The notes beneath the pieces are model-generated. The model worked only from the letters and a program-made list of their open reading frames with translations. It made no database searches and was not told the origin of the DNA. Positions 5,534-53,421 of a stretch of DNA of 54,744 nt are shown here, piece by piece. The stretch is from a virus. The stretch spans positions 1 to 54,744 of the IMG/VR virus record IMGVR_UViG_3300035072_000127; one strand, written 5' to 3'. The translations under genes and the position numbers were made by a program. Positions within the stretch are counted from its first letter, which is position 1. The number at the start of each line of letters is the position of its first letter.

Positions 5534-5599
5534 GTTTTCCCGTTCCCGCGTCGACGAGATGGCGGCCACTGCCTGAGTGTGGCTTTCCTCCCTGGGACT

Positions 5600-5627
5600 C
5601 CCTGGCGCTTCGGCGCCAGGGTCTTTT
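5600..5627 (+). terminator. Intrinsic terminator with UUCG tetraloop
   Basis: CCCTGGCGC (5600-5608) and GCGCCAGGG (5613-5621) are perfect complements around the stable tetraloop TTCG, followed by TCTTTT. It closes the first early operon before the GapR-like gene. Confidence 0.88.
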
Positions 5628-5642
5628 GCAAAGGCGCATTGG

Positions 5643-24211: not shown

Positions 24212-26308
24212 ATGCCTCTCCAGAAGGGCCCCAACGCTGCCGCGTTCTCTCATAACGTGGCAGCGGAAATGCGCGCGGGAAAGCCGCAGCGCCAGGCGGT
24301 CGCCATTGCCTACAAGCAGGCTGGCGAAGACGAAGAGCCGATTGTCGCAGCGGGCATTCTCTTCATCACGCCTGACGGCAAGGTTTTACTTCTTCGCCGC
24401 AGCTCCAAGGAAGAAAATTTTGCAGGCCATTGGGCGATCCCCGGCGGCAAGGGCGAGCCGGGAGAAACGCCGGAGGAGGCCGCAGATCGTGAGGCAACCG
24501 AAGAAATCGGGAGCCATCCTCCTGGCCGCAAAATCCTCTTTGATCGGCGCACAACGCCCAACGGCTTCGCCTATTCGACCTATGTTAAGCGCGTAGATAG
24601 TGCGTTCGATCCGAAACTGAACGACGAGCACGACGGCCATCAGTGGGCAAGCCTTGATGACCTCCCGCATCCGCTACATCCTGCGGTGCAGGACAACCTC
24701 CGCCGGCTTAAGGAAGTTGCGACAAAACGCGCTGAAGATGAGAAGGGCTGCGACTTTTTTGATCGCCTGACGACGGCGCTATTCATGGCGCGGTCCGCCG
24801 CCGCCGATTCCATTGCCTTCGACAAGGCCAGCGTTCGCACGGTTGACGAAAACGGCCACATGCGCGTTGAGCGCTCGCCAATCTCGCGCGCGGTCGTCTC
24901 CCCCTATTACGGGCGGGAAATTCCAGAATGGAAAAAGCTCGGGCTTGATCCAGACCGTGTTTACAACCTCTACCGCGACGCCGATGAGCTGAAGAAAGCC
25001 GCGCCGACGTTCGCCGGCAAGCCCCTGCTCCTGCGCCACACCCCGTCCGTCGCCGAAGATCACCCGCGCCAGACGACGGTTGGGTCTGTGGGCGATGATG
25101 TCGAGTTCGAGGGCGATACGCTCTTTGCCCCGCTCAACATCTGGGATCAGGAAGCGATCGACGCCATCGAAAACGAGACGCTTCGCGATCTCTCCTGCGG
25201 CTACCTCTACGACTGCGACATGACCCCCGGCGTAGCGCCAGACGGCACGCCTTATGACGGCCGCATGATCAACATCCGCGGCAACCATCTCGCTCAAGTC
25301 GAAGAAGGACGAGTCCCCGGCGCATATGTGGCTGACGCTGCGCCCGGTTTCAAAACTCAGCCGGAGAAAAATGGAATGAAGAAACCGCTCTCTCTGAAGG
25401 CGGCTCAGACGCAGGGAGCGGTTTTCGCTTATCTGCGTCCGCTGCTTGCCGCGGACGCGAAGATCGACCTCACGCCGATCTTCGCGGGCGTCACCTCGAA
25501 GAATTTCGAGAGCCGCACCGGCAAGATGCTGCACGACATCAAGAAGGCTGTGGCTGGCAAGCTCGCCGCCGACGCCGTTTACGACAACGAGGGGCTCAAA
25601 GAGCTGCTCGGCGCCGTTGGCGCGCACAAAGCGGAAGACGAGGAAGAGGGCGTGCGCCCGAACCTGTCAGAGCGGCGTGAAGGACCGGACGACACCGACG
25701 CGGTCGACGACGATCCGTTCGCCAAGATCAATGCTTTGCTCAAAGGCAAGCTCTCCGACGAGGAGATGGCTGCGTTGGGTGAGCTGCTGAAGCAGATCGG
25801 CGCCGCTACAGAGCATCATGAGCGCTCTGAGATGGCGGGCCAGGATGAAGACCGCGAGGACCAAGGCGCCATGCGGCGCGAGGGGGGCCGCGCGGACGAC
25901 GAAAACGAGGAAGACAAGCTCATGAACAAAGCGGCCATGGACGCCGCCATCAACAAGGCCGTTTCGGCCCGCGTCGCCCGAGAGATCGGCAACGCCGTTG
26001 CGGTGGCGACGAAGAAACTTCAGGACAATTTCTCCGCCATCCGCGACGCCGAGCGCGAAGTCGAGCCCTATGTGGGCAAGCTCGCCATGAGCTTCGACAG
26101 CGCCGAGAACGTGCGGCGCGCGGCGCTCGACGTTCTCGGCGTTGATCATGCCGGCGTCCATCCGTCCGCCCTCTCCGCCATTCTCAAAGCGCAGCCGCTC
26201 CCTGGCCACCAGCCCGCCCCGTCGCGCGGCTCGGCGAAGGGCTACGCCAGCGCCGATGCGGAGCTCACCAAAATCCTCGGCGGCCTTGAGCCGGTCCGCG
26301 TTCTCTAA
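24212..26308 (+). CDS. Nudix hydrolase fused to DUF2213 prohead protease-like protein, 698 aa
   Basis: Residues 1-40 match a short phage motif (SHNVAAEMRAGKPQRQAVAI). Residues 45-170 are a Nudix domain with the box GGKGEPGETPEEAADREATE-EIG. Residues about 190-390 match DUF2213 (SPISRAVVSPYYGREIPEW, FAGKPLLLRHTP, LRDLSCGYLYDCDM). The remaining 300 residues are charged and helical, as in scaffolds. ATG 25376 and ATG 25922, the latter after AGGAAG, are possible internal starts for a scaffold form. It sits just before the capsid genes, consistent with a maturation protease. The Nudix fusion is unusual. Confidence 0.82.
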   Translation: MPLQKGPNAAAFSHNVAAEMRAGKPQRQAVAIAYKQAGEDEEPIVAAGILFITPDGKVLLLRRSSKEENFAGHWAIPGGKGEPGETPEEAADREATEEIGSHPPGRKILFDRRTTPNGFAYSTYVKRVDSAFDPKLNDEHDGHQWASLDDLPHPLHPAVQDNLRRLKEVATKRAEDEKGCDFFDRLTTALFMARSAAADSIAFDKASVRTVDENGHMRVERSPISRAVVSPYYGREIPEWKKLGLDPDRVYNLYRDADELKKAAPTFAGKPLLLRHTPSVAEDHPRQTTVGSVGDDVEFEGDTLFAPLNIWDQEAIDAIENETLRDLSCGYLYDCDMTPGVAPDGTPYDGRMINIRGNHLAQVEEGRVPGAYVADAAPGFKTQPEKNGMKKPLSLKAAQTQGAVFAYLRPLLAADAKIDLTPIFAGVTSKNFESRTGKMLHDIKKAVAGKLAADAVYDNEGLKELLGAVGAHKAEDEEEGVRPNLSERREGPDDTDAVDDDPFAKINALLKGKLSDEEMAALGELLKQIGAATEHHERSEMAGQDEDREDQGAMRREGGRADDENEEDKLMNKAAMDAAINKAVSARVAREIGNAVAVATKKLQDNFSAIRDAEREVEPYVGKLAMSFDSAENVRRAALDVLGVDHAGVHPSALSAILKAQPLPGHQPAPSRGSAKGYASADAELTKILGGLEPVRVL

Positions 26309-26321
26309 GGAGATCTGAACA

Positions 26322-27266
26322 ATGACTGGCTTTCAGTCCACGATGTACAACCAGCCCGCCATCGGCATCGAAGGCGACTGGGCTTCCCACAATCCGCGAT
26401 ATTCGATGCTGGCCGGCGTCGGCGCTCTCATCGCTGGCGCAGCTGGCGTCACGGTCGGCCGCTTCGCCTGGGCGGCGGCGGATGGCATCGTCTCCAACAG
26501 CGGCGGCCAGGGCCGCATCGGCTTCGTCCAGAAAGACCAGCCGGCGCTGATCACGGAGTTTCTCGGCCAGTCCAGCATGGTCGTGCCGACTGGCTACGAG
26601 GTGACGCTGTATACCGACGCCGACGTGCTGGCGCGGTTCGCGTCCGGCGCTGCGGTTGGCCAGAAGGTCTACGCCAACTACGCGGATGGCACCTGCTATG
26701 CCGCCGCCACCGGCACGCCACCGGCTGGCGGTTCCTGCACCGGCACCATTGCCGCGGGCACGGCCTCCGTCACGGGCTCCATCGCCTCAGCCACGCCGTT
26801 CAATACGGATACGGCCGGCGGCGTTCTCACCGTCACCGCCGTGGGCTCCGGCACGCTGTATCCCGGGTCCGCCATCTCCGGTTCGGGCGTTGTTTCCGGC
26901 ACCACCATCGTTCGCCAGCTGTCGGGCACGGCGGGCGGCGTCGGGACCTACGAGGTGTCGATCAACCAGACGGTGGCGTCCACCACCATCTCCGCCACCT
27001 ACGGCCTGTTCACGGCGTCGAGCGCCATGTCTGGCACGTTCGGCGTCGGCCAGATCCTGTCGGGAACCGGCGGTGGCGGCGTCGCCGCAGGCACGCAGAT
27101 CACCGCTCTGGGCACCGGCACGGGCGGCCTCGGGACCTACATCGTCAATCTCACGCAGACGGTCACGTCGTCCACGATCACCAGCGTGTCGGCGGTCGAG
27201 ACGAACTGGTACGTCGACTCTTACGCAGGCGCGGGCGAACTCGCGCGCATCAGCACGCACGGCTAA
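26322..27266 (+). CDS. Capsid cement/decoration protein with two inserted beta-modules, 314 aa
   Basis: AAGGAGATCTGAACA precedes the ATG. Residues 1-130 match the Gp24-like capsid cement family ([40 protein letters not shown]). From about 26741 two copies of a glycine/threonine-rich module follow, for example [37 protein letters not shown], then [17 protein letters not shown]. The C-terminus [20 protein letters not shown] resumes cement-like sequence, so the modules look inserted. It stabilises the mature capsid by family analogy. Confidence 0.78.
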
Positions 27267-27381
27267 CGCGCGGTTTGACACGTCCTCTCGCTGGTAGCGG
27301 GGGGAGTTTTACGATGATGCACATTGCGCAGCCCTGATTAATCGGCGCGCATTTCCTCCCCCTCCCGAACCATCAAAAGGA

Positions 27382-27420
27382 CGCGAAAACACCCCGGCTT
27401 TTGGCCAGGGTGTTTTCGCG
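27382..27420 (+). repeat. Strong 12-bp hairpin upstream of the major capsid gene
   Basis: CGCGAAAACACC (27382-27393) and GGTGTTTTCGCG (27409-27420) are perfect complements around a 15-nt loop. No T-run follows, so it is not a simple terminator. It ends 13 bases before ATG 27434, next to a weak ribosome-binding site. It may be a processing site or mRNA stabiliser for the capsid transcript. The interval 27267-27433 holds no gene that I can support. Confidence 0.75.
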
Positions 27421-27433
27421 CGCGTGGCGCTCC

Positions 27434-28474
27434 ATGAAACCTGAACAACTCAAGGTGCTCGCGAATCGCGGCATCATCGTTCCTGACTACGCAGAAATGC
27501 TGCCGGAGAATTGGCAAGGAAATCCGGAGGTCGCGATGGACGCGGCGCCGGTCACTGTCACCGCCCAGAACGCGGGCATCCCGTCCTATCTCGCCAACCT
27601 CCTCGATCCAAAGCGCATCCGCGTCCTCGTCACTCCGATGAAGGCGGCGCAGGTGTGCGGCGAAGGATCGAAGGGCGAGGTCAAAAAGGGCGACTGGACG
27701 ACCCTCACCACGCAGTTCCCCGTCGTGGAGTCGACCGGCGAAGTGTCGTCTTATGGCGATTACAACAACAACGGTTTTGCCGGCTCCAACTACAACTGGG
27801 TGCCGCGGCAGAGCTACCACTTCCAGACCATCGTGGGCTACGGCGACCGCGAGACCGAGATTTTCGGCCTTGCCGCCATGAACTACGTCGCGGATAAGAA
27901 CTATTCCGCCGACCTCATCATGGCGAAGTTCATGAACCAGACGTATCTGTATGGCGTCGCCGGCCTGCAGAACTATGGCATGCTCAACGATCCGAGCCTG
28001 CCGGCCTACGTCACGCCGTCCACCAAGACCGCGGGCGGCACCACGTGGGCGGTCGCCACGGCGGTGGAGATCTTCAACGACTTCCTGGCGCTCTATGTGC
28101 AGCTGCAGACCCAGTTGGCCGGCATGCTGGACAGCGAGGCAAAAATGACGCTGGCGTTGTCGCCGGTCATTGAGCCTTATCTGGATCGCGTCACCAGCTA
28201 CACGCTGGCGCCGGCCCGCAAAGCGATCATGGATGCGTTCAAGAATCTGCGCATCGTCACCGTGCCCGAATACAACACTGCGGCGGGCGAAGTCATCCAG
28301 CTCATTGCCGATGAAATCGACGGCGACCAGACGGCCTATTGCGCCTTCACCGAGAAGATGCGCGCCGGCCCGGTCATCCCCGAGCTCTCGGCGAAGCGCC
28401 AGAAGAAGACCGGCGGAACTTGGGGAGCGATCATCCGCCGCCCCATCGCCATCGCACAGGGGATCGGTTACTGA
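27434..28474 (+). CDS. Major capsid protein (DUF2184 type), 346 aa
   Basis: Landmarks: QVCGEGSKGEVKKGDWTT, YGDYNNNGFAGSNYNWVPRQ followed by SYHFQTIVGYG, KMTLALSPVIEPYLDR and the C-terminal WGAIIRRPIAIAQGIGY. This matches the DUF2184 HK97-like capsid group. I chose ATG 27434 rather than TTG 27401, which falls in the hairpin loop. Position after protease and cement protein supports it. Confidence 0.88.
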   Translation: MKPEQLKVLANRGIIVPDYAEMLPENWQGNPEVAMDAAPVTVTAQNAGIPSYLANLLDPKRIRVLVTPMKAAQVCGEGSKGEVKKGDWTTLTTQFPVVESTGEVSSYGDYNNNGFAGSNYNWVPRQSYHFQTIVGYGDRETEIFGLAAMNYVADKNYSADLIMAKFMNQTYLYGVAGLQNYGMLNDPSLPAYVTPSTKTAGGTTWAVATAVEIFNDFLALYVQLQTQLAGMLDSEAKMTLALSPVIEPYLDRVTSYTLAPARKAIMDAFKNLRIVTVPEYNTAAGEVIQLIADEIDGDQTAYCAFTEKMRAGPVIPELSAKRQKKTGGTWGAIIRRPIAIAQGIGY

Positions 28475-28932
28475 TGGTCGAAATCGCAAACAAGGGGGCT
28501 GCGGCCCCCAACAATCCCGCCTCCAAGGCCACTCCCCCCTCGGGCGTCGCCACTGTCGTCGTCGGCTGCCGTCTGCTGCATGGCATCGGGTTGCAGCTGT
28601 TTCAATTGAGCGAGACCGACGACAAGCAGCCGATCCGCAAGCCTGTCGGCGAGAAGGTCTGGCTGAATGGCGCCAACAAGTCCGGCCTGATCAACGGCGT
28701 CGGCCTCACCGAGGTCGACGCCTCGTTCTGGGAAGCCTGGGTCAAGGACAACGCGGACTTCGCGCCGTTCAAGAACGGCCACATCTTCGTGCAGTCCACC
28801 AAAGAGCGGGCGCTGTCCGCTGCCGACGAGCGCAAGACGCTGAAGACCGGCGTCGAGCCGATTGACCCGAACAATCCCGGCGAGCGCTTGAAAACGGCCA
28901 AAATCGAGAAGATGACCGAGAAGGCCGCGTAA
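28474..28932 (+). CDS. Hypothetical virion-region protein, 152 aa
   Basis: ATG 28474 overlaps the capsid stop (TGATG). N-terminal tail NKGAAAPNNPASKATPPSG, then GVGLTEVDASFWEAWVKDNA and IDPNNPGERLKTAKIEKMTE. The middle resembles small head proteins found beside DUF2184 capsids. Exact role unknown. Confidence 0.68.
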   Translation: MVEIANKGAAAPNNPASKATPPSGVATVVVGCRLLHGIGLQLFQLSETDDKQPIRKPVGEKVWLNGANKSGLINGVGLTEVDASFWEAWVKDNADFAPFKNGHIFVQSTKERALSAADERKTLKTGVEPIDPNNPGERLKTAKIEKMTEKAA

Positions 28933-28933
28933 G

Positions 28934-29386
28934 ATGGGAGCCGTCGCCTCATTCGTCTACAGTGACTGGGTGGCTCGCTACCCCGAGTTTTCGGGGGTCA
29001 GCAGTTCGCTCGCGCAGATGTATTTCAATGAGGCGGCGCTCGTCCTGCGCAACGACGGGACGAGCCCTGTCAACGACGTGGGGCAGCAGACCATGCTGCT
29101 CTACATGCTCACGGCGCACATCGCTTTCCTCAATCCCGGCGCCACCGGCCAGCCTGCCTCCACGGCCGGCTCAGTTGGCAGCATCTCGAGCGCCACGCAG
29201 GGCAGCGTCTCAGTGTCCTATGCCAAGCCAGCTGTCTCTGGCTCGGCGGAATGGTTCGCCCAGTCAAAGTATGGGTTCGCCTATTGGAATGCGATGGCGC
29301 CCTACCGGCAGATGCGATACGTGCCGGGGCCCCGCAAGACATTCGAGCCGCCTTACGGGCGGCCGGGATATGTGCCTAAGTGGTAA
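28934..29386 (+). CDS. Head-tail adaptor (DUF4054), 150 aa
   Basis: YSDWVARYPEFSGVSSSLAQ, LYMLTAHIAFL and GYVPKW are typical of DUF4054-like connectors attached below the portal. Position after the capsid and length fit. It overlaps the following GTG by seven bases. Confidence 0.8.
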   Translation: MGAVASFVYSDWVARYPEFSGVSSSLAQMYFNEAALVLRNDGTSPVNDVGQQTMLLYMLTAHIAFLNPGATGQPASTAGSVGSISSATQGSVSVSYAKPAVSGSAEWFAQSKYGFAYWNAMAPYRQMRYVPGPRKTFEPPYGRPGYVPKW

Positions 29387-29823
29387 AGCTCTCGGGCGGC
29401 GACCGGTTGGAGCGCGCGCTCAAGGAAATGAGCGCAAAGCTCACCAACGCCGCGACAGTTGATGTCGGGTTTCTTGAGGACGCGACCTATCCAGATGGGA
29501 CAAGCGTTCCGATGGTTGCCGCCATCCAGGAATTTGGAGCTCCATCGCGGAACATCCCCCCCCGGCCATTCTTCCGCGGCATGATCAATGACAAATCGCC
29601 GGAATGGCCAGAGGCCGTAGCCGAGTTGCTCAAAGACAACGACTTTGACGCGCGCAAGACGTTGGAGCTGACCGGCAGCGCGATCAAAGGGCAGTTGCAG
29701 GAAGCCATTACGGAGTTCGATGGCGTCCCGCTGTCCCCGAAGACGGTCGCGCGCAAGGGCTTCGACAAGCAGCTTGTGGACACCGGCCATCTGCTCAACA
29801 GCGTCGATTTTGCGGTGAAGTGA
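29380..29823 (+). CDS. Neck/tail completion protein (gp10-like), 147 aa
   Basis: GTG 29380 overlaps the DUF4054 gene. The sequence ATVDVGFLEDATYPDGTSVP, AIQEFGAPSRNIPPRPFFRG and KGFDKQLVDTGHLLNSVDF is the classical pattern of virion morphogenesis and HK97 gp10-like proteins. It acts at the neck or tail terminator. Confidence 0.78.
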   Translation: MVKLSGGDRLERALKEMSAKLTNAATVDVGFLEDATYPDGTSVPMVAAIQEFGAPSRNIPPRPFFRGMINDKSPEWPEAVAELLKDNDFDARKTLELTGSAIKGQLQEAITEFDGVPLSPKTVARKGFDKQLVDTGHLLNSVDFAVK

Positions 29824-29824
29824 C

Positions 29825-30199
29825 GTGAATCTCAACGCCATCGCGGGCGGCGTGGTAAGCGCCGTGCTCCCCCAAACGCCGCTCAGCATCCAGGTCAGCA
29901 CTGGCTACACCACGACCAGCAGCGGCAAGCGCGTCTCGTCCTACGCTGCCCCCGTCACTGTCATGGGCAGCGTGCAAACGATGACCAGCGCCGACCTGAT
30001 GCAATACGAGTCCATCAACGTCGAGCGCGTCACCACCAAGATTTTCATTAACGGTCAGGTGGACGGGCTTGTCCGCGCGACGCGCAAGGGTGGCGATCTC
30101 ATCACGACCCCGGATGGCTCTGTGTGGCTGGTGACGAACGTCTTTGAAGACTGGCCGGACTGGTGCTGTGTCGGTGTGACCTTGCAGAACGGGGCTTGA
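29825..30199 (+). CDS. Neck/connector protein, 124 aa
   Basis: GTG 29825 follows the previous stop by one base. The beta-rich sequence [35 protein letters not shown] resembles the head-tail joining protein found at this position in DUF3383-sheath phages. Assignment is from position and fold-like pattern. Confidence 0.6.
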
Positions 30200-30203
30200 G
30201 ACA

Positions 30204-30929
30204 ATGGGGTTTGCTCCGAGCGTCACCGAAGCCGACGTCCAGACGGCTCTGCGTTCATTCCTGCTGGCGATCCTGCCCGCAGGAGTTGAGGTGGTCGAGG
30301 GCCAGGACAATCGCGTCCCGGAGCCCCAACCCAGCGACTTCGTCGTGATGACGCCGATCCTGCGCAGTCGCATCGAGACGAACACGGACGAATGGGCGGA
30401 CGTATCGTTCACCGGGTCTATTTCCGGGACGACGCTCACGGTCAGCGCCGTGGCGTTCGGCGCCCTCTCGATCGGCGCGACGCTCTACGGCGTCGGCATC
30501 GCGGCGGGCACACAGATCGTGGCCCTTGGGTCAGGAACGGGCGGCGCCGGGACTTACACTGTCAACCAATCTCAGAACGTCGCCAGCGAGAGGATGGCGT
30601 GTGGCGCGTGGAGCATCTCGCAGCCGACGAAGATCACCATCCAACTCGATGTGCACGGGCCCAGCAGCGCGGACAACGCGCAGACGATCTCGACGCTGTT
30701 TCGCGACGATTACGCCGTCCAAGCCTTCCACGCGACGGCGCCCGGCGTGACGCCGCTGTTTTGTGAAGACCCGAAACAGATCCCCTTCACCAACGCCGAG
30801 AACCAAGTCGAGTTTCGGTATGTGGTCGACGCCAATATCCAGGCGAACATCACCATCTCGCCGCCGCAGCAATACGCCGATCAGGTGAGCGTGACGACGA
30901 TCGAAGTCGATACGACCTACCCTGCCTAA
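30204..30929 (+). CDS. Tail terminator/neck protein with one inserted beta-module, 241 aa
   Basis: The N-terminus [32 protein letters not shown] and the C-terminus [31 protein letters not shown] match phage neck terminator proteins. Between them (30409-30595) lies a foreign module: [39 protein letters not shown]. The terminator family normally runs straight from the first part to the second, so this is an insertion. Confidence 0.75.
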
Positions 30930-30938
30930 AGGATAACC

Positions 30939-32882
30939 ATGAGCACGATTCCCGCGTCCCAAATCGTCAACGTCATTCCGAACGTTCTAAGCGCGGGCGG
31001 GAATGCGCTGGACATCGTCGGCGTGATGCTGACGACCAGCGACCGAGTGCCGATCGGCGCGGTCCTGCCGTTTACCAGCGCGCCGGCCGTGGCGGCTTAT
31101 TTCGGGGCATCCTCGAATGAAGCCACCCAGGCCACTGTTTATTTCAACGGCTTCGACAACTCGTCGCAGAAGCCGGGGAAGATGTATGTCGCCCAATACC
31201 CGGCGGTCGCCGTTAGCGCCTATCTGCGCAGCGGCAACATCACTGCGGCGCTGACGCTAGCTCAGCTGCAGGCGCTCACGGGCACGCTCATCGTGTCCAT
31301 CGACGGCTATGTGCGCACGGCCTCGGCCCTCGACTTGTCCAGCGCCACAAGCTTTTCCGCGGCGGCCACCCTTATTCAGACCGGGCTCAATGCCTCTATT
31401 CCGACCGCCGCGAGCGTGACGGGCGCCATCGCGGCTGGCTCCGCCAGCTTCACCGGTTCCATCGCCGGCACGGTGCTTACGGTCACGGGGGCTGTCACAG
31501 GCACCATCGCGCCGGGCGGCGTAATCTCGGGCACGGGGGTCACGGGCGGGACCACGATCACTTCTCAGTTGTCTGGCACGGCGGGCGGAGCGGGGACATA
31601 CGGCGTCTCCGTTGCCCAGACCGTGGCTTCGACGACGATCTCTGAGACCTACGGAACCCTCACCGTCTCAGCGGTCGGCTCCGGCACCATCTCGGTCGGT
31701 CAGACGCTCTCTGGATCTGGCGTGACGGCCAGCACCGTTGTGACTGGCCTCGGCACCGGCACCGGCTTGACCGGCACTTATTACGTCAACCTGACGCAGA
31801 CCGCGGCAAGCACCACGATCACAGCGAAAGGAACGCCAGTGGTCGTCACGTTCGACTCCGTGTCGGGGGCGTTCATCATCGCGTCGGGAATCACTGGCGC
31901 GGCGGCCACGGCTGGTTTCGCCACCGGAACGCTGGCGGCCACGCTGCTGATGACTTCGGCTACCGGCGCCGTGACGTCTCAGGGCTCCGCCCAGACCGAC
32001 CCGAATACGTTCATGAACGGCGTGGCATCAGTCACTCAGGACTGGGCGACGTTCTGGCTTAACTTCGACCCGGATTATGGCTCGGGGAACGCGCAGAAGC
32101 TCGCCTTCGTCCAGTGGACGAACTCCACCAGTAATCGTTTCGCCTTCGTGTGTTGGGATACGGACGCGTCGCCGACCGTCAGCGTTCCAGCGACCGGGAG
32201 CCTCGGAGCGCTCATCGCTGCGAACAACTATTCTGGCACCATCCTCATCTGGGAGCCAAGCGAGCTGTACCACGCCGCCTTCGCCTGCGGCTGGGCGGCA
32301 TCGATCGACTTCAGCGCCCACAATGGCCGCACCACGCTGGACTTCCGCGGCCAGACCGGCCTCGCCGCCGCCGTCACGGTGGAATCTGTGTGGTCGAATC
32401 TACTGGCGAATGGCTACAACTGCTATGGCGCCTTCGCGACAGCGAATGAGCAGTTTCTCTTCATGGACAACGGGTCGATCAGTGGCCCGTTCCTATGGGC
32501 GGACAGCTACATCAACCAGATTTGGCTGAACAACCAGCTGCAGTTGGCGCTCATGGTGCTGCTCACCAACACCAAGTCCATCCCCTTCAACCAGGCCGGC
32601 TACGCGCTGGTTCGAGCAGCGATCCAGGACCCGATCAATCAAGCGCTCGACTTCGGGGCTATTCGCGCGGGCGTGACGCTTTCCGCGCAGCAGGCCGCGG
32701 AAATCAACAACGCTGCGGGAGCGCAGGTGGCGCAATATGTCCAGGCCCAGGGTTGGTATCTCCAAATCGCCGACGCCAACCCGCAGGACCGCGCCGCGCG
32801 CAAACTGAAGACTCCCCTTCTTTGGTACACGGACGGGCAGAGTGTCCAACGCATCACCTTGACGAGCATCGAGGTCCAATAA
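30939..32882 (+). CDS. Contractile tail sheath (DUF3383) with two inserted beta-modules, 647 aa
   Basis: N-terminus IPASQIVNVIPNVLSAGGNA, later VTQDWATFWLNFDPDYGSGN and VTVESVWSNLLANGYNCYGA, and the C-terminus RITLTSIEVQ match DUF3383 sheath-like proteins. Nucleotides 31420-31840 insert two modules: FTGSIAGTVLTVTGAVTG, then TLTVSAVGSGTISVGQTLSG. The sheath establishes a contractile tail. The insert falls inside a variable domain, likely surface-exposed. Confidence 0.84.
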   Translation: MSTIPASQIVNVIPNVLSAGGNALDIVGVMLTTSDRVPIGAVLPFTSAPAVAAYFGASSNEATQATVYFNGFDNSSQKPGKMYVAQYPAVAVSAYLRSGNITAALTLAQLQALTGTLIVSIDGYVRTASALDLSSATSFSAAATLIQTGLNASIPTAASVTGAIAAGSASFTGSIAGTVLTVTGAVTGTIAPGGVISGTGVTGGTTITSQLSGTAGGAGTYGVSVAQTVASTTISETYGTLTVSAVGSGTISVGQTLSGSGVTASTVVTGLGTGTGLTGTYYVNLTQTAASTTITAKGTPVVVTFDSVSGAFIIASGITGAAATAGFATGTLAATLLMTSATGAVTSQGSAQTDPNTFMNGVASVTQDWATFWLNFDPDYGSGNAQKLAFVQWTNSTSNRFAFVCWDTDASPTVSVPATGSLGALIAANNYSGTILIWEPSELYHAAFACGWAASIDFSAHNGRTTLDFRGQTGLAAAVTVESVWSNLLANGYNCYGAFATANEQFLFMDNGSISGPFLWADSYINQIWLNNQLQLALMVLLTNTKSIPFNQAGYALVRAAIQDPINQALDFGAIRAGVTLSAQQAAEINNAAGAQVAQYVQAQGWYLQIADANPQDRAARKLKTPLLWYTDGQSVQRITLTSIEVQ

Positions 32883-32902
32883 AGCGATAAGGGCTTACTG
32901 AC

Positions 32903-33343
32903 ATGGCTTCGATCACTTCCGCTAACTCCGTCCTGATGCTGTCTGTCAGCTCACTCTATGTGGTGCCGCAGCAGATCCAGGGGTTCGCCGCCGACGACAT
33001 CTTCGACCTCGACGCGCTTGAGGTGGCTGAGACGATGATGGGCGTCGATGGGAGGCTGTCCTCTGGTTACGTGAACGTCCCCGTCAAGTGGGGCATCAGC
33101 TTGATGGCCGACTCGCCCAGCAACGCGATCTTCGACAACTGGTACGTCAGCCAGAAGCAGCAGCAGGACGTGTATTTCGCGAATGGCTCGATCACGCTGC
33201 CGAGTCTGGGCGTCGTCTACACGCTCACCAAGGGGTCGCTGACTTCCTACCAGCCGGGACCGAATGCGAAGAAGGTCCTGCAGCCCCGCAAGCACGTGAT
33301 CACCTGGGAGAGCATCTTGCCTTCCCTGGTGCCGGGGGTCTGA
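32903..33343 (+). CDS. Tail tube protein (DUF3277-like), 146 aa
   Basis: FAADDIFDLDALEVAETMMG, VDGRLSSGYVNVPVKWGISL, ADSPSNAIFDNW and PRKHVITWESILP are typical of the tube proteins that follow DUF3383 sheaths. It would form the rigid tube inside the sheath. Confidence 0.82.
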   Translation: MASITSANSVLMLSVSSLYVVPQQIQGFAADDIFDLDALEVAETMMGVDGRLSSGYVNVPVKWGISLMADSPSNAIFDNWYVSQKQQQDVYFANGSITLPSLGVVYTLTKGSLTSYQPGPNAKKVLQPRKHVITWESILPSLVPGV

Positions 33344-33346
33344 TAA

Positions 33347-33787
33347 ATGGCGCGCAAAGTAGCCAGGATCACCATCGCCGACGAGGGTCGCGACAAGGGC
33401 AAGGTCTTTGTCCTAACTGAGATGCCAGCCTCTCGGGCCGAGAAATGGGCGATGCGGGCGCTGCTAGTCATGTCTCGATCTGGCGTGGACATTCCCAACG
33501 ACGCAGTGCAGTCGGGGATGCTTGGCGTCGCGGCGGCTGGCGTCCAGTCGCTAGCTCGCCTCCAATTCTTCGAGGCTGAAGAATTGATGGATGAGATGTT
33601 TGGCTGCATCACGATCCAGCCCGACCCAGAAATCCCGACGACAACGCGCCCATTGATCGAGGACGATATTGAAGAGGTTGCGACGCGTCTGAAACTGCGG
33701 TGGGAGGTGCTGCAGTTGCACGTAAATTTTTCTATGTCCGGTCTTTTGTCGAGACTGAGGCCGGCGACTTCGGCGGCGCAAGACTGA
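33347..33787 (+). CDS. Tail assembly chaperone (G-like), 146 aa
   Basis: Begins four bases after the tube gene. The sequence GKVFVLTEMPASRAEKWAMR and LIEDDIEEVATRLKLRWEVL resembles tail chaperones of myoviruses. Near its end, at 33724-33730, the heptamer A AAT TTT permits a -1 shift into the frame at 33700-33960. The chaperone and its fusion would coat the tape measure during tail assembly. Confidence 0.75.
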   Translation: MARKVARITIADEGRDKGKVFVLTEMPASRAEKWAMRALLVMSRSGVDIPNDAVQSGMLGVAAAGVQSLARLQFFEAEELMDEMFGCITIQPDPEIPTTTRPLIEDDIEEVATRLKLRWEVLQLHVNFSMSGLLSRLRPATSAAQD

Positions 33788-33960
33788 TCGAGTATCGTAA
33801 CGTGACCAGCGCGATCGGGCAGGTTCTGTCGACGCGCCTCGCGACGCTCCACGAGCTGGACACGGTCTACGGCGTAGAGGACGTCTACGATCTCCTCGAG
33901 GTGGCTTCCGTCGATGCCCATAACCAGAGCCAACTGAACAAAAGGGCGGCCAAGGAATGA
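33724..33960 (+). CDS. Chaperone -1 frameshift extension (GT-like)
   Basis: After AAATTTT at 33724-33730 the -1 frame reads FYVRSFVETEAGDFGGARLI, then VTSAIGQVLSTRLATLHELD and VYGVEDVYDLLEVASVDAHN. The frame is open from GTG 33700 but no good ribosome-binding site is present. Offset, position between tube and tape measure, and the heptamer fit a G-GT frameshift. The fused protein would be about 204 residues. A GCCG/CGGC hairpin a few tens of bases downstream could stimulate shifting. A separate gene from GTG 33700 is the alternative. Confidence 0.68.
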   Translation, partial: KFFYVRSFVETEAGDFGGARLIEYRNVTSAIGQVLSTRLATLHELDTVYGVEDVYDLLEVASVDAHNQSQLNKRAAKE

Positions 33961-35762
33961 ACGTAGTCGACTCGCTGGTCGTCACGCTGGGGCTGGACGC
34001 CTCAGGGTTTGAGAAAGGCCAGAAGGAAGCGGATACCGCGCTCCAAAAGATGCGCGACGATGCAGCCAAGCATGGCAAGGAGATCGAGAAATCCGCCAAG
34101 GATAGCGGGGAGTCCTTTCGCACGCTGACGCGCGAGGTCGCGACCTTTGTTGCAACGCTTGCCTCCGCCAAGGGCATCTATGATTTTCTGAAAGGGCTGA
34201 ACCAGGTCAATGCCGCCGTTGGGCGGCTTACGCAAAGCCTTAATGGGTCACCAGAGGCCATTTCGACGTTCGGCAATGCTGTTGAGCGTTTCGGAGGGAA
34301 TGCGACCGAAGCCTCCGGCTCGCTCCAACGTCTACTAGATCAATTTAATGAGCTACGCACGACTGGTAACTCAGCAATTTTACCTTGGCTGGGGCAGATC
34401 CAATCCCGTGGCGGCATCAAAATTGACCCGACAAAGCCGCTCACAAAGCAGCTCTTTGCGCTCGCGGAAGACTTAAAAAGCATCGCGGCGAAAGATCCCG
34501 CGCTGGCGATGTTCCTTGGGCGAAAACTTGGATTGGATGACGCTTCAATCCGGCTGTTGATGCAAGGCGCTAAGGGGCTTGCCGATGCTCTCAAAGAGGC
34601 GCGCAAGCATGCCATCACCAAAGAACAAGCGGATGCGTCAATCGCCGTAGAGAAGGCGTGGACGGGCGCTTATCAGGCCATTCGCAGCGCTGGGCGAGAG
34701 ATGCTAGTTGTTCTCGCCCCTGGATTAAGACTTCTCGCGCGGCTGGTCGAATGGCTCGCGGACGGGTGGCGGCATTTTTTCCGCTGGCTTGTGATGATCA
34801 AGCAGGAATGGAACGAGTGGACGAAGTCCGTTTGGGAAGGCGCCAAGAGCGCCATGTCGCACGTCGCGTCCGTCATCAGCGGGTCGGGCGCGCAAATCCT
34901 CGACGCCTTCAAGAAAGCCTTCTGGGGTGCCTTTGACTGGTTGAAAAACGAGTTCAATTCAATCTGGCGCAAGATAACGGGCGGCAATCTGTTCGATATG
35001 TCGGCGCACGCCGCCGAGGCTCCTGGCGGTGGCGCTGGGCCGCTCGCGGGCGGTGCGGCTAGCGGAGCATCGCCAGGCGGGCATCCGGGATCGAGCGGCT
35101 CTTACGGCGCAGCAGCGGGCCGTATGCGCCAGATGGGCACGCCAGCCGCGACAGGCAAATGGTGGACGCCTGAGCGGCAAAAATACGCCGTAGACTATTT
35201 GATGAAGAATGCCGGCTTGTCGCAATACGGCGCATCTGGGCTTGTCGCGCGCTGGGCTGGCGTAGAGGCTGCGAGCGGTCCGGGAAGCGTGAATCCAAGA
35301 TCGGGAGCGTTTGGAATCGCGCAGTGGCTTGGCAAGAGAAGGGTGGGCATCGCCGGCAACACTGATTTTGACGCACAATTGGCCCATGCCGCGCGCGAGT
35401 TGAACACCAGTGAGAGGAAGGCGGGAGACGTCCTCCGCGCCGCCAAGAGCGCCGTCGAAGGCGCCCGTGGGGCGTCCATGTTCGAACGCGCCGAAGGATA
35501 CAACCCGGCCACTGGTATAGATAATTTCACAGGTCGCACGCCCGTCGTCAGTGTCTACAATAAGGCGTTCGGGGCTCGAGCAGCCGCGAGCATCAACAAC
35601 AGCCGCAGCAGCTCCGTGGTGAATAATTCTTCGGCCCAGACCAACATCGGTAACGTCAACGTCCAAACACAGGCGACGGATGGCCCCGGAATTGTGCGCG
35701 ACCTCCAGAATGCCATTACGCATCACTCGTTCGCCGCGCATCTCAACTACGGCGGCATCTAA
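33957..35762 (+). CDS. Tape measure protein with tail lysozyme domain, 601 aa
   Basis: N-terminus SLVVTLGLDASGFEKGQKEA is the usual tape-measure opening, then long helices and a hydrophobic central stretch (LVVLAPGLRLLARLVEWLAD). Residues about 400-510 match the phage tail lysozyme fold: KYAVDYLMKNAGLSQYGASG, LVARWAGVEAASGPGSVNP and SGAFGIAQWLGKRRVGI, with a candidate catalytic Glu in GVEAAS. At 601 residues it implies a short tail. Overlaps the chaperone frame by ATGA. Confidence 0.87.
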   Translation: MNVVDSLVVTLGLDASGFEKGQKEADTALQKMRDDAAKHGKEIEKSAKDSGESFRTLTREVATFVATLASAKGIYDFLKGLNQVNAAVGRLTQSLNGSPEAISTFGNAVERFGGNATEASGSLQRLLDQFNELRTTGNSAILPWLGQIQSRGGIKIDPTKPLTKQLFALAEDLKSIAAKDPALAMFLGRKLGLDDASIRLLMQGAKGLADALKEARKHAITKEQADASIAVEKAWTGAYQAIRSAGREMLVVLAPGLRLLARLVEWLADGWRHFFRWLVMIKQEWNEWTKSVWEGAKSAMSHVASVISGSGAQILDAFKKAFWGAFDWLKNEFNSIWRKITGGNLFDMSAHAAEAPGGGAGPLAGGAASGASPGGHPGSSGSYGAAAGRMRQMGTPAATGKWWTPERQKYAVDYLMKNAGLSQYGASGLVARWAGVEAASGPGSVNPRSGAFGIAQWLGKRRVGIAGNTDFDAQLAHAARELNTSERKAGDVLRAAKSAVEGARGASMFERAEGYNPATGIDNFTGRTPVVSVYNKAFGARAAASINNSRSSSVVNNSSAQTNIGNVNVQTQATDGPGIVRDLQNAITHHSFAAHLNYGGI

Positions 35763-36361
35763 TGGCGTTCTTGGTGAACGTCCCCAACGCCCCCGGTGTC
35801 CCGCCCGTCGCGCGCGCAGCCGCGTCGTACGCGACCGCGCTGCTGACAGGAGATAGCTTTCCGCCCGGCAGTTTCCTGCAGCAGTGGGGATTGTATCTCG
35901 AGGGGCAGCCCGTCATCACGGCGGACAGCGTCATCGACATGACCTACCGCCAGGACTGGTCCATCTGCGATTATCCCCTCGAGCAAGGGGCCTTCGAGAG
36001 CTACAACAAGGTCCAGATCCCCTTCGACGCCCGCCTGCGGTTCTCAGCGGGCGGCTCGATAGCCAACCGCGAAGCGCTATTGGCGTCGGTCGCCGCAGTC
36101 GCAGGGACATTGACACTGTTTTCCGCCGTGACTCCCGAGGTGGTCTATCCCAACGTCAACGTGCATCATTACGACTACCGCCGCACCTCGACGAACGGGC
36201 TCGGCCTGATGGTGGTGGATGTTTGGTTGCAGGAGGTCCGCATCACCACGCAGGGTTCTGGATCGAATGTTGCGGCGCCGAGCGCGGCTTCTGCGGTTAG
36301 CGGGGGGACTGTGCAAGGAGCCGCGCCGAGCGCGGCGGAATCGGGAGCGTCTTGGACGTGA
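35762..36361 (+). CDS. Baseplate/tail hub-associated protein, 199 aa
   Basis: The segments VIDMTYRQDWSICDYPLEQG, AFESYNKVQIPFDARLRFSA and PNVNVHHYDYRRTSTNGLGL resemble the baseplate protein lying between tape measure and plug in contractile DUF3383 phages. The C-terminus is an alanine/serine-rich tail. Function is inferred from position and pattern. Confidence 0.68.
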   Translation: MAFLVNVPNAPGVPPVARAAASYATALLTGDSFPPGSFLQQWGLYLEGQPVITADSVIDMTYRQDWSICDYPLEQGAFESYNKVQIPFDARLRFSAGGSIANREALLASVAAVAGTLTLFSAVTPEVVYPNVNVHHYDYRRTSTNGLGLMVVDVWLQEVRITTQGSGSNVAAPSAASAVSGGTVQGAAPSAAESGASWT

Positions 36362-36669
36362 TCATCGTGCCCCTGCAAGCGGTCCCCAACCAGACCGTCA
36401 ACATCCAGCTTGGCGGCCAATACGTCGTCCTGAACATCTACCAGAAGTTTTTCGGTGTGTTCATGGACGTGTTTTCGAACGGCTCCGTGGTCGTCCAGGG
36501 CGTCATCTGCCAGAACCTTAATCGCATCGTCCGAGATCTCTATTTTGGCTTCGTCGGCGACTTCGTATGGATCGATTCGTTCGCGTCAGACGACCCGACC
36601 TATACCGGGGTCGGATCGCGATTCAACCTAGCCTACCTGGAGGCGTCCGATCTCAACGGGCAGGGCTAG
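36358..36669 (+). CDS. Baseplate plug protein (DUF6983-like), 103 aa
   Basis: GTG 36358 overlaps the upstream stop as GTGA; TTG 36352 is an alternative. VPNQTVNIQLGGQYVVLNIY, MDVFSNGSVVVQGVICQNLN and FNLAYLEASDLNGQG match short baseplate plug proteins. The stop abuts the 3' end of an antisense gene. Confidence 0.75.
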   Translation: MIIVPLQAVPNQTVNIQLGGQYVVLNIYQKFFGVFMDVFSNGSVVVQGVICQNLNRIVRDLYFGFVGDFVWIDSFASDDPTYTGVGSRFNLAYLEASDLNGQG

Positions 36670-37064
36670 CGGTGCAACGCCTGTATCGGAATGCCGCTCA
36701 CGCGCGAGATATCCGAGCGGATCGTGTAGATGGTTTGAGGATCAATTGAGGCGCATTCCTCGGCAGACATGCCGAGCTTATGGCCACGCGCGACGGCGTC
36801 TTCGATCATCGCCGTGATGTTCCGCCATCCCTTCGGAAGCCCAAGGCGATAGGTGAACTCATAGGTCAATCTTTGAAGCCGGGCATTGATCAGGAGCCCT
36901 CCCAATTTGGCAAACCCGCATTGCTCCACTTCGGAGATCATTGTGGCGTTCGCTAAGAAGGCTTCCAATCTCAGCTCGGCCTCCGCCTCTTCGATGGATT
37001 GCCGGTCCTGTGCGAGCGCGGCGGAATTTGCAAGAACAGTGAGCACAATCAAAAGTTTACGCAT
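36666..37064 (-). CDS. Antisense exported protein (moron candidate), 132 aa
   Basis: The gene lies on the opposite strand inside the tail operon and overlaps the 3' end of the plug gene by four bases. GGGGAAGTTC precedes ATG 37064. The N-terminus MRKLLIVLTVLANSAALAQ is a Sec signal peptide. The mature part has ISEVEQCGFAKLGGLL and a second Cys in SAEECASIDPQTIYTI, which could form one disulfide. A promoter must lie in the 50 bp upstream or inside 37116-37979. Likely expressed in the lysogen as a lysogenic-conversion gene; no family recognised. Confidence 0.72.
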   Translation of the reverse strand: MRKLLIVLTVLANSAALAQDRQSIEEAEAELRLEAFLANATMISEVEQCGFAKLGGLLINARLQRLTYEFTYRLGLPKGWRNITAMIEDAVARGHKLGMSAEECASIDPQTIYTIRSDISRVSGIPIQALHR

Positions 37065-37115
37065 GAACTTCCCCGTAAGATAGCCGTCAACGAGACCGGA
37101 TCATAATCCCGCCCC

Positions 37116-37979
37116 ATGGCCTTCACCAAAAAGCGCATCAACGTCACGTTCGAAATGGACGGGGCGCAGGCGAACACGCAGAGCGGAAAGCGCGTCTCCT
37201 GCCGTATCGTCAACGCCGGTTCCCCGAGCATGGGGACGGCGGACATCGCCATCTACGGGATGACCCTGAGCGACATGAACGCGCTCTCGACGATCGGGAC
37301 GCAATTCAACCAGATCGGCAAAAACAGGGTCTCCATCTACGCCGGCGACTCTGACCAGAGCATGAAGCTCGCCTTCCAGGGCACCATCTACATGGCGTGG
37401 ATGGACGGGCAGGCGCAGCCGGAAGTCCCCTTTCGCGTCAATGCCTATGGCGGCCTCTATGAGGCCGTCGCGAAGGCGGATCCGACGAGCGTCCAAGGGA
37501 CGGCAGACGTCGCGCAGGTTATCCAGCAGATTGCGCAGCAGGCTGGGCTTCAATTCGAAAACAATGGCGTCAACGTCAAGTTGTCGAACCCCTATCTGCC
37601 GGGAACGGCGCGCGAGCAGATCCTGAACATCGCCAGGGCGGCTGGCATTGAATGGACGATTGAGAACGGCACGGTGGCGATCTGGGACAGCGCCAAAGGG
37701 CGCCAGGGCCGGAACGTGACGCTATCCCCTGAGACAGGGCTTGTCGGCTATCCGTCCTTCAACCAAGCCGCGATCATCGCGCGGTCCGTCTACAATTCAG
37801 AAATTGTTCTCGGAAGCCAAGTGACGCTCCAGAGCCAGATCAAGCCGGCCAGCGGAACCTGGAACGTCGTCAATGTCGTTCACGAAATCGAAAGCGAGAT
37901 GCCGAACGGCGCCTGGTTTACGGTCGTCACCATGACGACGGTTGGGGGCGACGTTTCGGCTGGTGGGGCAGGGGACTGA
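37116..37979 (+). CDS. Baseplate hub protein (gp27/D-like), 287 aa
   Basis: ADIAIYGMTLSDMNALSTIG, RVSIYAGDSDQSMKLAFQGT and GTAREQILNIARAAGIEWTI are hallmarks of hub proteins of P2 D/T4 gp27 type. It connects the tube to the spike. It has its own start after the antisense moron. Confidence 0.8.
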   Translation: MAFTKKRINVTFEMDGAQANTQSGKRVSCRIVNAGSPSMGTADIAIYGMTLSDMNALSTIGTQFNQIGKNRVSIYAGDSDQSMKLAFQGTIYMAWMDGQAQPEVPFRVNAYGGLYEAVAKADPTSVQGTADVAQVIQQIAQQAGLQFENNGVNVKLSNPYLPGTAREQILNIARAAGIEWTIENGTVAIWDSAKGRQGRNVTLSPETGLVGYPSFNQAAIIARSVYNSEIVLGSQVTLQSQIKPASGTWNVVNVVHEIESEMPNGAWFTVVTMTTVGGDVSAGGAGD

Positions 37980-39421
37980 TGACGATCACGACCGCGGTCC
38001 CCTCTCCTTCCTTCGGGGCGAACGGGTTCACCGCGCCAGCTGAGGCCGATATTCTCTCAGGGCGCCAATCCGACATCAACAGCGCGTTCGGCGGCAATCT
38101 CAATCCAGGGCTCACGACCCCACAAGGGCAGCTGGCGCAGAGCGACGCCGCCATCATCGGGAACGTCAACGATACGTTTCTCATGATGGCGAACATGTTC
38201 GACCCCGCTTACTCCACGGGCCGCTACCAGGACGGCCTGGGCCGCATCTATTTCATCTCGCGCCAGCCGGCGCTGCCTACAACCGTCACGGTGACGTGCA
38301 CAGGGCTTCCCGGCGTCGTCATCCCCGTGAATGCGAAAGCCGTCGACGCGAGTGGCAACATCTACCTCTGCACGACCCAGGGGACGATCCCAGCAGGTGG
38401 GTCGATAGACCTGATCTTCCAGAACGTCGCCACGGGCCCCATTCCTTGCCCTGCCGGAACGCTGACGGGCATTTATCAGGCCATTCCCGGCTGGGATATC
38501 GTCAATAATGCCTCAGATGGTGTCCTAGGTCGCAACGTGGAGACGCGCGCGCAGTTTGAGGCGCGGCGCTACGCCGCCGTCGCCAACAACTCGGTCGGAT
38601 CGCCCGCCGCAGTCCTTGGGGCTGTCCTGACGGTTCCAAACGTGGTCGACGCCTACGTGGTCGACAACCCATCCAACGACGCAGTCGTGCTCCAGAACGT
38701 CACGTTGGCGCCGAATTCAATCTATGTTGCGGCGGTTGGTGGAGCATCGGCGGACGTCGCCAAAGCCATCTGGTCGAAGAAGTCGCCAGGGTGCTCCTAC
38801 AACGGCAATACGACCGTCACCGTGCAGGATACGAACCCGCTCTACAATCCGCCCTATCCCACCTATTCCGTGACCTACGAAGTCCCGGCGGACCTTCAGA
38901 TCATTGCCTCGGTCGTCATCAATTCGAGCCCCCAGGTTCCGATCAATTACCAGAGCCTGATCCAGGCGGCGATGGCGCAAGCGGCGGTGGGCTTAGACAA
39001 TGGGCCGCGGCTCAGGATCGCGACGAAAGTCCTTGCCAGCCGCTTCTACGCGCCCATCGCGGCGCTGGGTTCGTGGGCGCAAATCCTGTCCATCTCTCTC
39101 GGGTCCATCAATTCTGCAACCGCAACGTGCACGGCCTCGATCTCCGGCGCCACAATGACAGTCTCCGCGATGGGGCTAGGGACGCTGGCCGTTGGCCAGA
39201 CGCTCGGCGACGCGGGTGGCGTCATCGCGGTGGGAACGACCATCCTTGCGCAAGTTTCCGGCACGCCTGGAGGCGTTGGCGTCTACACGGTCAGCGTCTC
39301 GCAGAGCGTGCCGAGCCAACTAGTCCTCGCGGTGTCGCCGGCAGCCAATGAAGTGCTCGTGAACCTCAACCAGTTTCCGGTCATCTCAGCGGCGAATGTG
39401 ACGGTGACGACCGGCTCATGA
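37979..39421 (+). CDS. Baseplate J/gp47-like wedge protein with one inserted beta-module, 480 aa
   Basis: DAAIIGNVNDTFLMMANMFD, GLGRIYFISRQPALPTTVTV, DASDGV-like RNVETRAQFEARRYAAVAN and IYVAAVGGASADVAKAIW match Baseplate_J proteins. Nucleotides 39112-39340 add a module: ATCTASISGATMTVSAMGLG, GTLAVGQTLG, GGVGVYTVSVSQSV. It organises the baseplate periphery where fibres attach. Confidence 0.82.
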   Translation: MTITTAVPSPSFGANGFTAPAEADILSGRQSDINSAFGGNLNPGLTTPQGQLAQSDAAIIGNVNDTFLMMANMFDPAYSTGRYQDGLGRIYFISRQPALPTTVTVTCTGLPGVVIPVNAKAVDASGNIYLCTTQGTIPAGGSIDLIFQNVATGPIPCPAGTLTGIYQAIPGWDIVNNASDGVLGRNVETRAQFEARRYAAVANNSVGSPAAVLGAVLTVPNVVDAYVVDNPSNDAVVLQNVTLAPNSIYVAAVGGASADVAKAIWSKKSPGCSYNGNTTVTVQDTNPLYNPPYPTYSVTYEVPADLQIIASVVINSSPQVPINYQSLIQAAMAQAAVGLDNGPRLRIATKVLASRFYAPIAALGSWAQILSISLGSINSATATCTASISGATMTVSAMGLGTLAVGQTLGDAGGVIAVGTTILAQVSGTPGGVGVYTVSVSQSVPSQLVLAVSPAANEVLVNLNQFPVISAANVTVTTGS

Positions 39422-40197: not shown

Positions 40198-41187
40198 ATG
40201 CAGTCGTCACAGCTTCCTACGAGGCTACAGATCCCGTTCGCCAACAACGCTGGCGGTAGTTACATCAGGTCTATTCCCACCCCGTCACAGATACCGATCA
40301 GCCCTGGCGCTGCGTCGTTGTATGACGGGTTTCCCCCGAACACATTCTCGCCCACGGGGGCGCCCGATGGGCGCGACTTCAACGGCATCCTCAATATGAT
40401 GTCGGCGTGGAACTGGTGGCAGGCTGCGGGCGGTCCGGTCCCATGGGATTCGTCGTTCTCCACGGCGATCGGGGGTTATCCGAAAGGCGCTGTCGTGGCG
40501 TCCGCTACGACCTTCGGAATATTCTGGCTGAACTCTGTGGAGAATAACACCTCCAATCCCGACGCAGGCGGGGCGGGGTGGACGACATGGACGCCTGGCC
40601 TGCTCTACGGGGCCGACACTGGCGCTGTTAATGCGCTCGTGGTCAATATCCCTGGGGCGCCAGCGGCTCCGTATACGGGGTTGGTCATCCAGACGACCCC
40701 AGCGCACTCGAATACATCGTCCGCTGTTACGTTAAATTACAACGGGACGGGTGCAAAGAACGTAGTTAGATTTGACGGGGCGGGGCTGATTGCGAACAAC
40801 CTTTCCGTCGCGCCGAGCAAAGCTGTGTTTTCGTTCGATTCAGTAGCCAATTCGTGGGTCTTGCTAAATCCGAATACTGTCACGGCTCTAAACTTCAGTC
40901 TGGTAGGTTACTACATCCTGCCCGGCGGTTTGATACTGGAATGGGGCTACTTACCCATATCTGGCTTCTCCACCGATACGTCGTTCACCATCACATTCCC
41001 GCTGGCTTTTCCGAATGCGTGCTTGTCCCTAACGGGCACCACCGAGAACGGCCACGATGACATATTTGCCGACGTTTTCCCGCAGGTGATCTCGCGGGGC
41101 ACGACCACGGCTGCACTGATCGCTAACAACACCTACGGCAGCAACTCCAACATCACGGGGTTCTACTGGGTGGCTATCGGCTACTGA
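40198..41187 (+). CDS. Tail fibre protein with gp53-like tip, 329 aa
   Basis: The N-terminus QIPFANNAGGSYIRSIPTPS, GRDFNGILNMMSAWNWWQAA is an attachment domain seen in fibres after DUF2612. The C-terminus GGLILEWGYLPISGFSTDTS and VISRGTTTAALIANNT, ending FYWVAIGY, matches the gp53-like tip fold, normally the receptor-binding part. Confidence 0.78.
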   Translation: MQSSQLPTRLQIPFANNAGGSYIRSIPTPSQIPISPGAASLYDGFPPNTFSPTGAPDGRDFNGILNMMSAWNWWQAAGGPVPWDSSFSTAIGGYPKGAVVASATTFGIFWLNSVENNTSNPDAGGAGWTTWTPGLLYGADTGAVNALVVNIPGAPAAPYTGLVIQTTPAHSNTSSAVTLNYNGTGAKNVVRFDGAGLIANNLSVAPSKAVFSFDSVANSWVLLNPNTVTALNFSLVGYYILPGGLILEWGYLPISGFSTDTSFTITFPLAFPNACLSLTGTTENGHDDIFADVFPQVISRGTTTAALIANNTYGSNSNITGFYWVAIGY

Positions 41188-52941: not shown

Positions 52942-53421
52942 CATTGGGGGCACAATCGAGGGCAAACAAAGCTAGGCGATTCGTCGTCACCCCATTTTTC
53001 ACGATCGTTTCTGAATTTTTGCGCATGGCAATCGCCTTATATCCGGCGCGAAGGCGGGTCCATCCACCGCAGGGTTGTGGCGGGCCGGCCGTCACCGGCT
53101 CCCAGCAAAAGCGCATCGGCGGATCACGGAGGCGCCCGAGCGGGAACGTCGGCGAGAGCTTCGGCTTCGATTATTCCGCCTGTCGCATTGCCCGAAAAGG
53201 CTCCTTTTACCGGCAATAAAGGGCGTTATCTAATGAATGATTGAGTGAGCGAGGCTGCGTGGTCTCATTATCTTAACGCCGCGCCGGGCCAAAAGGCGGC
53301 CGATTTCTCTTGGGGGTGGAGGGCGCGGAAACGCCCGGCGGGCGGGATCGTGAGGGGGTGCTTGCTGTTCTATAAAAATTCAACGAGTGCGCGCGACGCC
53401 AGAAATGGTCTTGTTGGATCA

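Follow-up and report, generated by a model that had tools for sequence, protein, structure and literature searches.

What does it mean when a capsid protein, a neck protein, a tail sheath and a baseplate protein of one phage carry the same piece of sequence? The question is raised by a 54,744-nucleotide stretch of viral DNA (positions 1 to 54,744 of IMG/VR record IMGVR_UViG_3300035072_000127; hereafter the window), for which an initial annotation had proposed a module common to four virion proteins, mobile, surface-exposed and spread by intragenomic copying. Profile searches and shuffled controls confirm that a single Gly/Thr-rich beta module of about 65 residues occurs there in six copies, two in the capsid cement protein, one in the neck terminator, two in the tail sheath protein and one in the baseplate J-like protein, and sharpen its limits as follows:

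About 26757-26993, plus strand: module copy 1, first in the cement protein, with about 10 additional residues past the first strand (BLASTP, profile search, shuffle control)
About 26994-27188, plus strand: module copy 2, second in the cement protein (BLASTP, profile search, shuffle control)
About 30396-30596, plus strand: module copy 3, in the neck terminator (profile search, shuffle control; query of the structure prediction)
About 31437-31643, plus strand: module copy 4, first in the sheath (BLASTP, profile search, shuffle control, sheath model)
About 31644-31829, plus strand: module copy 5, second in the sheath (BLASTP, profile search, shuffle control, sheath model)
About 39119-39328, plus strand: module copy 6, in the baseplate J-like protein (profile search, shuffle control)

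A profile built from the six copies retrieves exactly these six places from the whole record (E values of 3e-23 to 1.5e-30) and no others; scans of viral and bacterial sequences with single module sequences as queries turned up many relatives outside the window. The strong BLASTP matches between different host proteins (E about 1e-9 to 1e-51) pass through the module. The module is of low complexity (Thr 22%, Gly 17%; Thr, Gly, Ser, Ala and Val together 70%) and holds 2.7% charged residues versus 13.9% in the remaining host sequence. Such a composition speaks for a deflationary explanation, namely that the segments are native core parts of each host family that came to look alike independently as Gly/Thr-rich beta structures. 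Chance similarity was controlled with profiles built without the tested protein (leave-one-protein-out) and 2,000 composition-preserving shuffles per segment, 12,000 in total. The segments scored 90.6 bits (neck), 99.8 and 79.9 bits (cement), 99.6 and 78.7 bits (sheath) and 75.5 bits (baseplate J), and the top shuffle 35.3 bits. With the real segments at 75-100 bits and no shuffle above about 35, the similarity is one of residue order and not of composition alone, which counts against independent resemblance.

The host proteins, whose assignments in the initial annotation are borne out by Pfam matches, are those of a myovirus whose E217-like components comprise terminase, portal, a Nudix-DUF2213 protein, cement, major capsid, collar, neck terminator, sheath, baseplate J and fibre. 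Those that carry modules in the window, together with two whose orthologues do so in other phages, are:

26322-27266, plus strand: capsid cement protein (E217 gp24/Pam3 gp6-like), two modules (Pfam PF22758 and PF23982, residues 4-148)
29825-30199, plus strand: collar protein (E217 gp28-like), empty site (PF22755, E 2e-5, slightly below the curated cut-off)
30204-30929, plus strand: neck (tail) terminator protein, one module (PF23961 in two pieces flanking the module)
30939-32882, plus strand: tail sheath protein (DUF3383, E217 gp31-like), two modules (PF11863, E 1e-114; 8env/9b42 by sequence and fold)
37979-39421, plus strand: baseplate J-like protein, one module close to the C-terminus (PF04865; E217 gp44, 8env_J)
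40198-41187, plus strand: tail fibre, empty site (PHROG tail fibre matches)

In both the neck terminator and the sheath, the Pfam match is broken up around the module, and module-free orthologues exist, as expected from the earlier suggestion that the module interrupts family sequence. Relatives of the window virion proteins (L numbers below) were gathered from viral contigs, which are metagenomic and represent incomplete genomes, and searched with the module profile; insertion sites were mapped by removing the modules and aligning the cores to those of the window, so that positions refer to window core residues. Twelve distinct insertion sites emerged across six orthologous virion proteins. 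The cement protein has one (core about 148-159), the collar two (core 44 in L065 and 96 in L037, the window collar being bare), the neck terminator two (core 26 in L009 and L061, and 67 in most phages), the sheath two (core 59 in L041 and about 161-170 in most phages), the baseplate J-like protein three (core about 232-237 in L027, L032 and L065, 274 in L041, and about 381 in the window and others) and the fibre two (core 105 in L027 and 124 in L041, the window fibre being bare). The flanks of the bare sites, read by eye on the sequence, appear to resemble loops or beta-turns.

Copy number varies as much as position. Orthologues carry 0, 1, 2 or 3 modules in the cement protein, 0, 1 or 2 in the neck terminator and in the sheath, 0 or 1 in the collar and the fibre, and 1, 2 or 3 in the baseplate J-like protein, so that every host but the last has both module-bearing and module-free orthologues; in the last, the modules stand at varying places. 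Each phage has its own combination: L008 carries modules in the sheath and neck with a bare cement protein (166 residues), L027 in the cement, neck, baseplate J and fibre proteins with a bare sheath (502 residues), and L070 in the cement protein alone; module-free cement orthologues of 161-166 residues are found in L008 and L090. No module was detected anywhere in the contigs of the three most distant relatives (L090-L092). On a tree of sheath cores, module presence and absence require three changes, with seven forks left open. Among SU10-adaptor-like proteins of other phages, pairs that are 84-85% identical outside the module bear one or two copies, and when L158 is compared with L012, the gene aligns well except for the second module, which stands out as a clean in-frame block. 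Whole-module gain or loss thus occurs between close relatives, and the module is an inserted domain, as the initial annotation had held, and not a native core. Orthologues without the segment retain the family sequence on both flanks, which rules out the native-core explanation and leaves it a negligible probability.

What kind of domain is inserted? None of the six modules has a Pfam or NCBIfam match at E up to 1, a PDB sequence search with the module gave no accepted match, and a literature search on its motif strings found nothing relevant. Weak matches to FliD, latrotoxin and OmpK36 were set aside as apparently composition-driven. AlphaFold2 predicts the neck module, from 101 sequences, with a predicted local distance difference test score (pLDDT) of 90.1 and a predicted template modelling score (pTM) of 0.73; its first and last strands are long and accompanied by two short ones. 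The conserved profile columns, mostly glycines together with Thr37, Ile39 and Tyr52, look structural in character, and no catalytic pattern was seen among them. In the sheath model (pLDDT 77.6), both modules are well predicted (blocks of about 79-93), and a single strand (residues 219-248) runs continuously from module 1 into module 2. These two predictions cover the isolated module and the sheath, and give the module a confident predicted fold.

The sole convincing match of the predicted neck module in the PDB is chain 1 of 8eci (Foldseek probability 1.00, template modelling score 0.73 by query, E 3e-3, 33% identity over 69 columns), recovered again with the sheath model (probability 0.96). 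This chain is gp7, the 126-residue 'Decoration protein' of Arthrobacter phage Bridgette (genus Bridgettevirus), the gene of which adjoins the major capsid gene. Module and gp7 have in common a core motif, vGxxIxgxGIpAGTtItavxSGT, and the gp7 family motif DvGrtItgtGIpAgtTIxsVxSxT aligns to the module core. Alignment of the module with a gp7 family profile (hhalign) is suggestive, with a probability of 52% and an E value of 1.5e-4 over just 24 columns, and hidden Markov models of the module give gp7 4.6 and 10.1 bits. A relationship between the module and the Bridgette-type decoration domain is probable, and a shorter motif of the same kind, GxGIPAGTTITxV, present in further phage proteins (L188-L194, such as L189 near 1501-1584), may link the two.

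How the copies arose can be read from their divergence. Pairwise, the window copies are 52-62% identical in DNA and 42-66% in protein, their synonymous sites have reached saturation, and where two copies share a residue its codon agrees in 37-59% of cases, against an expectation from codon usage of roughly 25-70% by residue and near 0.4 overall. With DNA identity this low and codon agreement near random, the window copies are old; no DNA-level conservation was found among the six. In a module tree, of which only supported groups were used since it rests on 65 columns and leaves most forks unresolved, the second sheath module of the window groups with the second sheath modules of L008, L009, L061 and L039 (97/81), and its neck module with the neck modules of L008, L009 and L061 (95/89). 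Modules are mostly inherited at their site. The proposal of spread by intragenomic copying, as far as recent copying in the window phage is concerned, is not supported by the codon comparison, the DNA identities or the module tree, and was rejected. Between the cement and sheath pairs, modules are most alike when they share the same rank (66% for the two first modules, 65% for the two second ones, about 50% for other pairs), which suggests that a two-module unit may once have been common to both genes, a point that the tree does not resolve. Within the family, the clearest case of recent copying or conversion is L119: its modules at 5597-5791 and 7787-7978, one hosted by a tail protein and the other by a lambda-J-like protein, share 80% DNA identity, including a long stretch without differences. 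Intragenomic copying therefore belongs to the module family, although it is not shown for the window genome.

Selection acts on the module about as strongly as on its hosts. Over 48 orthologue pairs of moderate divergence, the pooled ratio of nonsynonymous to synonymous substitution rates (dN/dS) is 0.11 in modules versus 0.09 in host parts; the module is therefore constrained, neither neutral nor diversifying, and is, to judge from these rates, retained as strictly as the virion proteins themselves.

The family extends well beyond the window. Two module scans of viral sequences, with single sequences as queries, and a sheath scan recovered at least 402 modules in at least 260 proteins from at least 152 loci, in about 30 host clusters. 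Among the matches listed, every host that an informative PHROG or Pfam match identifies belongs to the head, connector, tail or fibres; they comprise head closure Hc3 (P22 gp10-like), SU10-like adaptor, collar, neck terminator, sheath, cement, capsid/protease, baseplate wedge, tail protein, lambda J-like protein and fibres. A few clusters have no assignment, and the restriction to virion proteins covers nameable hosts. Only five of 50,697 named phage records match the window neck module at E <= 0.01, which makes the family rare among cultured phages. At least four bacterial genomes (3.5-4.9 Mb) carry one to four modules, a scan that does not by itself show rarity in bacteria. Two PHROG families contain the module, phrog_38233 (tail fibre, E 2e-15) and phrog_21413 (unknown, E 2e-14), as do predicted viral structures in BFVD: a major capsid protein, a pectate lyase, a tail tip protein and two collagen-repeat proteins of Indivirus. 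The last two, from the giant virus Indivirus ILV1, hold a domain of the same fold with 31-47% identity, and the module may thus occur beyond phages, in eukaryotic giant viruses.

Several features of the window stand apart from the module. In the head gene cluster (24212-26308), a DUF2213 protein (E 2e-46) bears a Nudix hydrolase domain (E 2e-20) as an N-terminal fusion. On the opposite strand of the tail operon lies a 132-residue open reading frame with a signal-peptide-like start (36666-37064, minus strand), a possible cargo gene. At the right end (53245-54744), an open frame encodes a histidine-kinase ATPase domain (PF02518, E 9e-20) and may be bacterial sequence adjoining a provirus. Compared with L087, the cement, neck and baseplate J proteins are almost identical, but about 51 synonymous differences separate the sheath genes, and identity falls to just 54% in the tape measure; these differences (30939-35762) form a local recombination patch spanning sheath and tape measure.

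What, then, is the module for? We consider it a better-than-even prospect that it is an exchangeable surface-decoration domain, borne on the virion exterior in many copies and engaged in generic, low-specificity and most likely weak multivalent contact. Under this model, a small autonomous beta domain, with predicted long strands at both ends, would be grafted into loops or beta-turns of virion proteins, leaving the fold of the host protein intact. On the head cement, neck, sheath and baseplate it would decorate the particle in many copies and, by analogy with phage immunoglobulin (Ig)-like domains, most likely make weak multivalent contacts with the host envelope or environmental surfaces. 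It would spread between phages through recombination, become fixed at a site and then be inherited vertically, with occasional within-genome copying adding further modules. The surface exposure suggested by the initial annotation is in part upheld, decoration being the role of the sole convincing solved match; exposure itself, like the decorating role, we infer. Several points weigh against this model. Exposure in the window phage is drawn from the host proteins and the literature, and adhesion is a proposal. The Bridgette profile link is short (24 columns), and the E value of the fold match is modest. The P22 gp10-like head-closure hub and the SU10-like adaptor are neck parts, for which stabilisation is as plausible as adhesion, and conservation of the module without diversification argues against a specific receptor-binding role.

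Stabilisation is indeed the chief competitor. Modules might contact neighbouring subunits, or each other in tandem, and stiffen head, neck and sheath, with gain and loss tuning virion stability. In its favour, the nearest solved structure is a capsid decoration protein, Bridgette capsid cement proteins are described in a later paper as dimers that bridge capsomers around the penton (PMC13033339), and stabilising capsids is the role of most decoration proteins studied (PMC7602432). The modules lie in cement, connector and sheath proteins, are under purifying selection equal to that of the host, and are joined in the sheath model by the continuous strand. Yet sites vary between orthologues and some relatives have no module in the same protein, which is hard to fit to required lattice contacts, and modules also occur in fibres and baseplate proteins. 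We lean towards adhesion, given that the sites are dispensable and differ from one orthologue to another and that modules occur in fibres and baseplates too, and hold cementing to be possible though improbable. The many sites, unrelated hosts and presence or absence among relatives might recall a selfish or neutral in-frame insertion, tolerated in loops like a repeat element and of no benefit. The copies, however, have no DNA-level conservation and reside only in virion proteins wherever hosts are nameable, and a dN/dS of about 0.1 largely refutes neutrality; we judge this explanation very unlikely. The decoration model also has a broader form, which we advance tentatively and believe is rather unlikely to hold: that the module is a general virion-coating domain, presenting the same binding surface on head, neck, sheath, baseplate and fibres. 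Attachment to one common class of surface, or dispersal on it, would then involve the entire particle and not the fibre tips alone.

Most of the promiscuous accessory domains known from phage virions have Ig-like folds, and the present module is a different, unnamed family in more protein classes. The dozen mapped sites are natural insertion-tolerant positions in the cement, neck, sheath, collar, baseplate and fibre proteins, the function of such surface domains becomes testable by comparing orthologues that naturally have or lack the module, and the module accounts for part of the unannotated sequence in environmental phages. Should the virion-coating reading be true, exchangeable surface domains of virions would include, besides the Ig-like ones, a second and non-Ig system that is common among uncultured phages.

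Among described systems, Bridgette gp7 matches the predicted module in fold and core motif and has, by its PDB name, a virion decoration role. By contrast, gp7 is a stand-alone gene product with its own C-terminal part, whereas the window copies are all internal to larger proteins, do not have that C-terminal part and add a GTGxGGxGTYxV ... QTVAS segment. The families phrog_38233 and phrog_21413 contain the module but describe whole proteins, in which it fills about 65 of 896 or 595 positions, unlabelled. Additional domains of tail sheaths (types 2 and 3) are extra beta domains that, in modelled and solved sheaths, sit on a conserved core at a distance from the tube (PMC9230969); the module is likewise an extra beta domain grafted on the sheath core, but those domains are mostly Ig-like and confined to sheaths, whereas the module family is common to sheath, capsid, neck and baseplate. 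The closest parallel in behaviour is provided by phage Ig-like domains, described as accessory and exchangeable in five classes of virion proteins and proposed to bind carbohydrates weakly (Fraser et al. 2006, as relayed in PMC9022992 and PMC7602432). Like them, the module is a promiscuous accessory beta domain, found in several virion protein classes and sporadic among relatives. Unlike them, it is an internal in-frame insertion, often in tandem; it has no Big_1, Big_2, I-set or FN3 profile match, nor do its host proteins have an Ig match; no convincing Ig-like beta-sandwich appears among its top 50 Foldseek matches; and its hosts include sheath, collar, neck terminator, adaptor and head-closure hub proteins, all beyond the five classes known for Ig-like domains. 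The module family works like phage Ig-like domains but is a different family.

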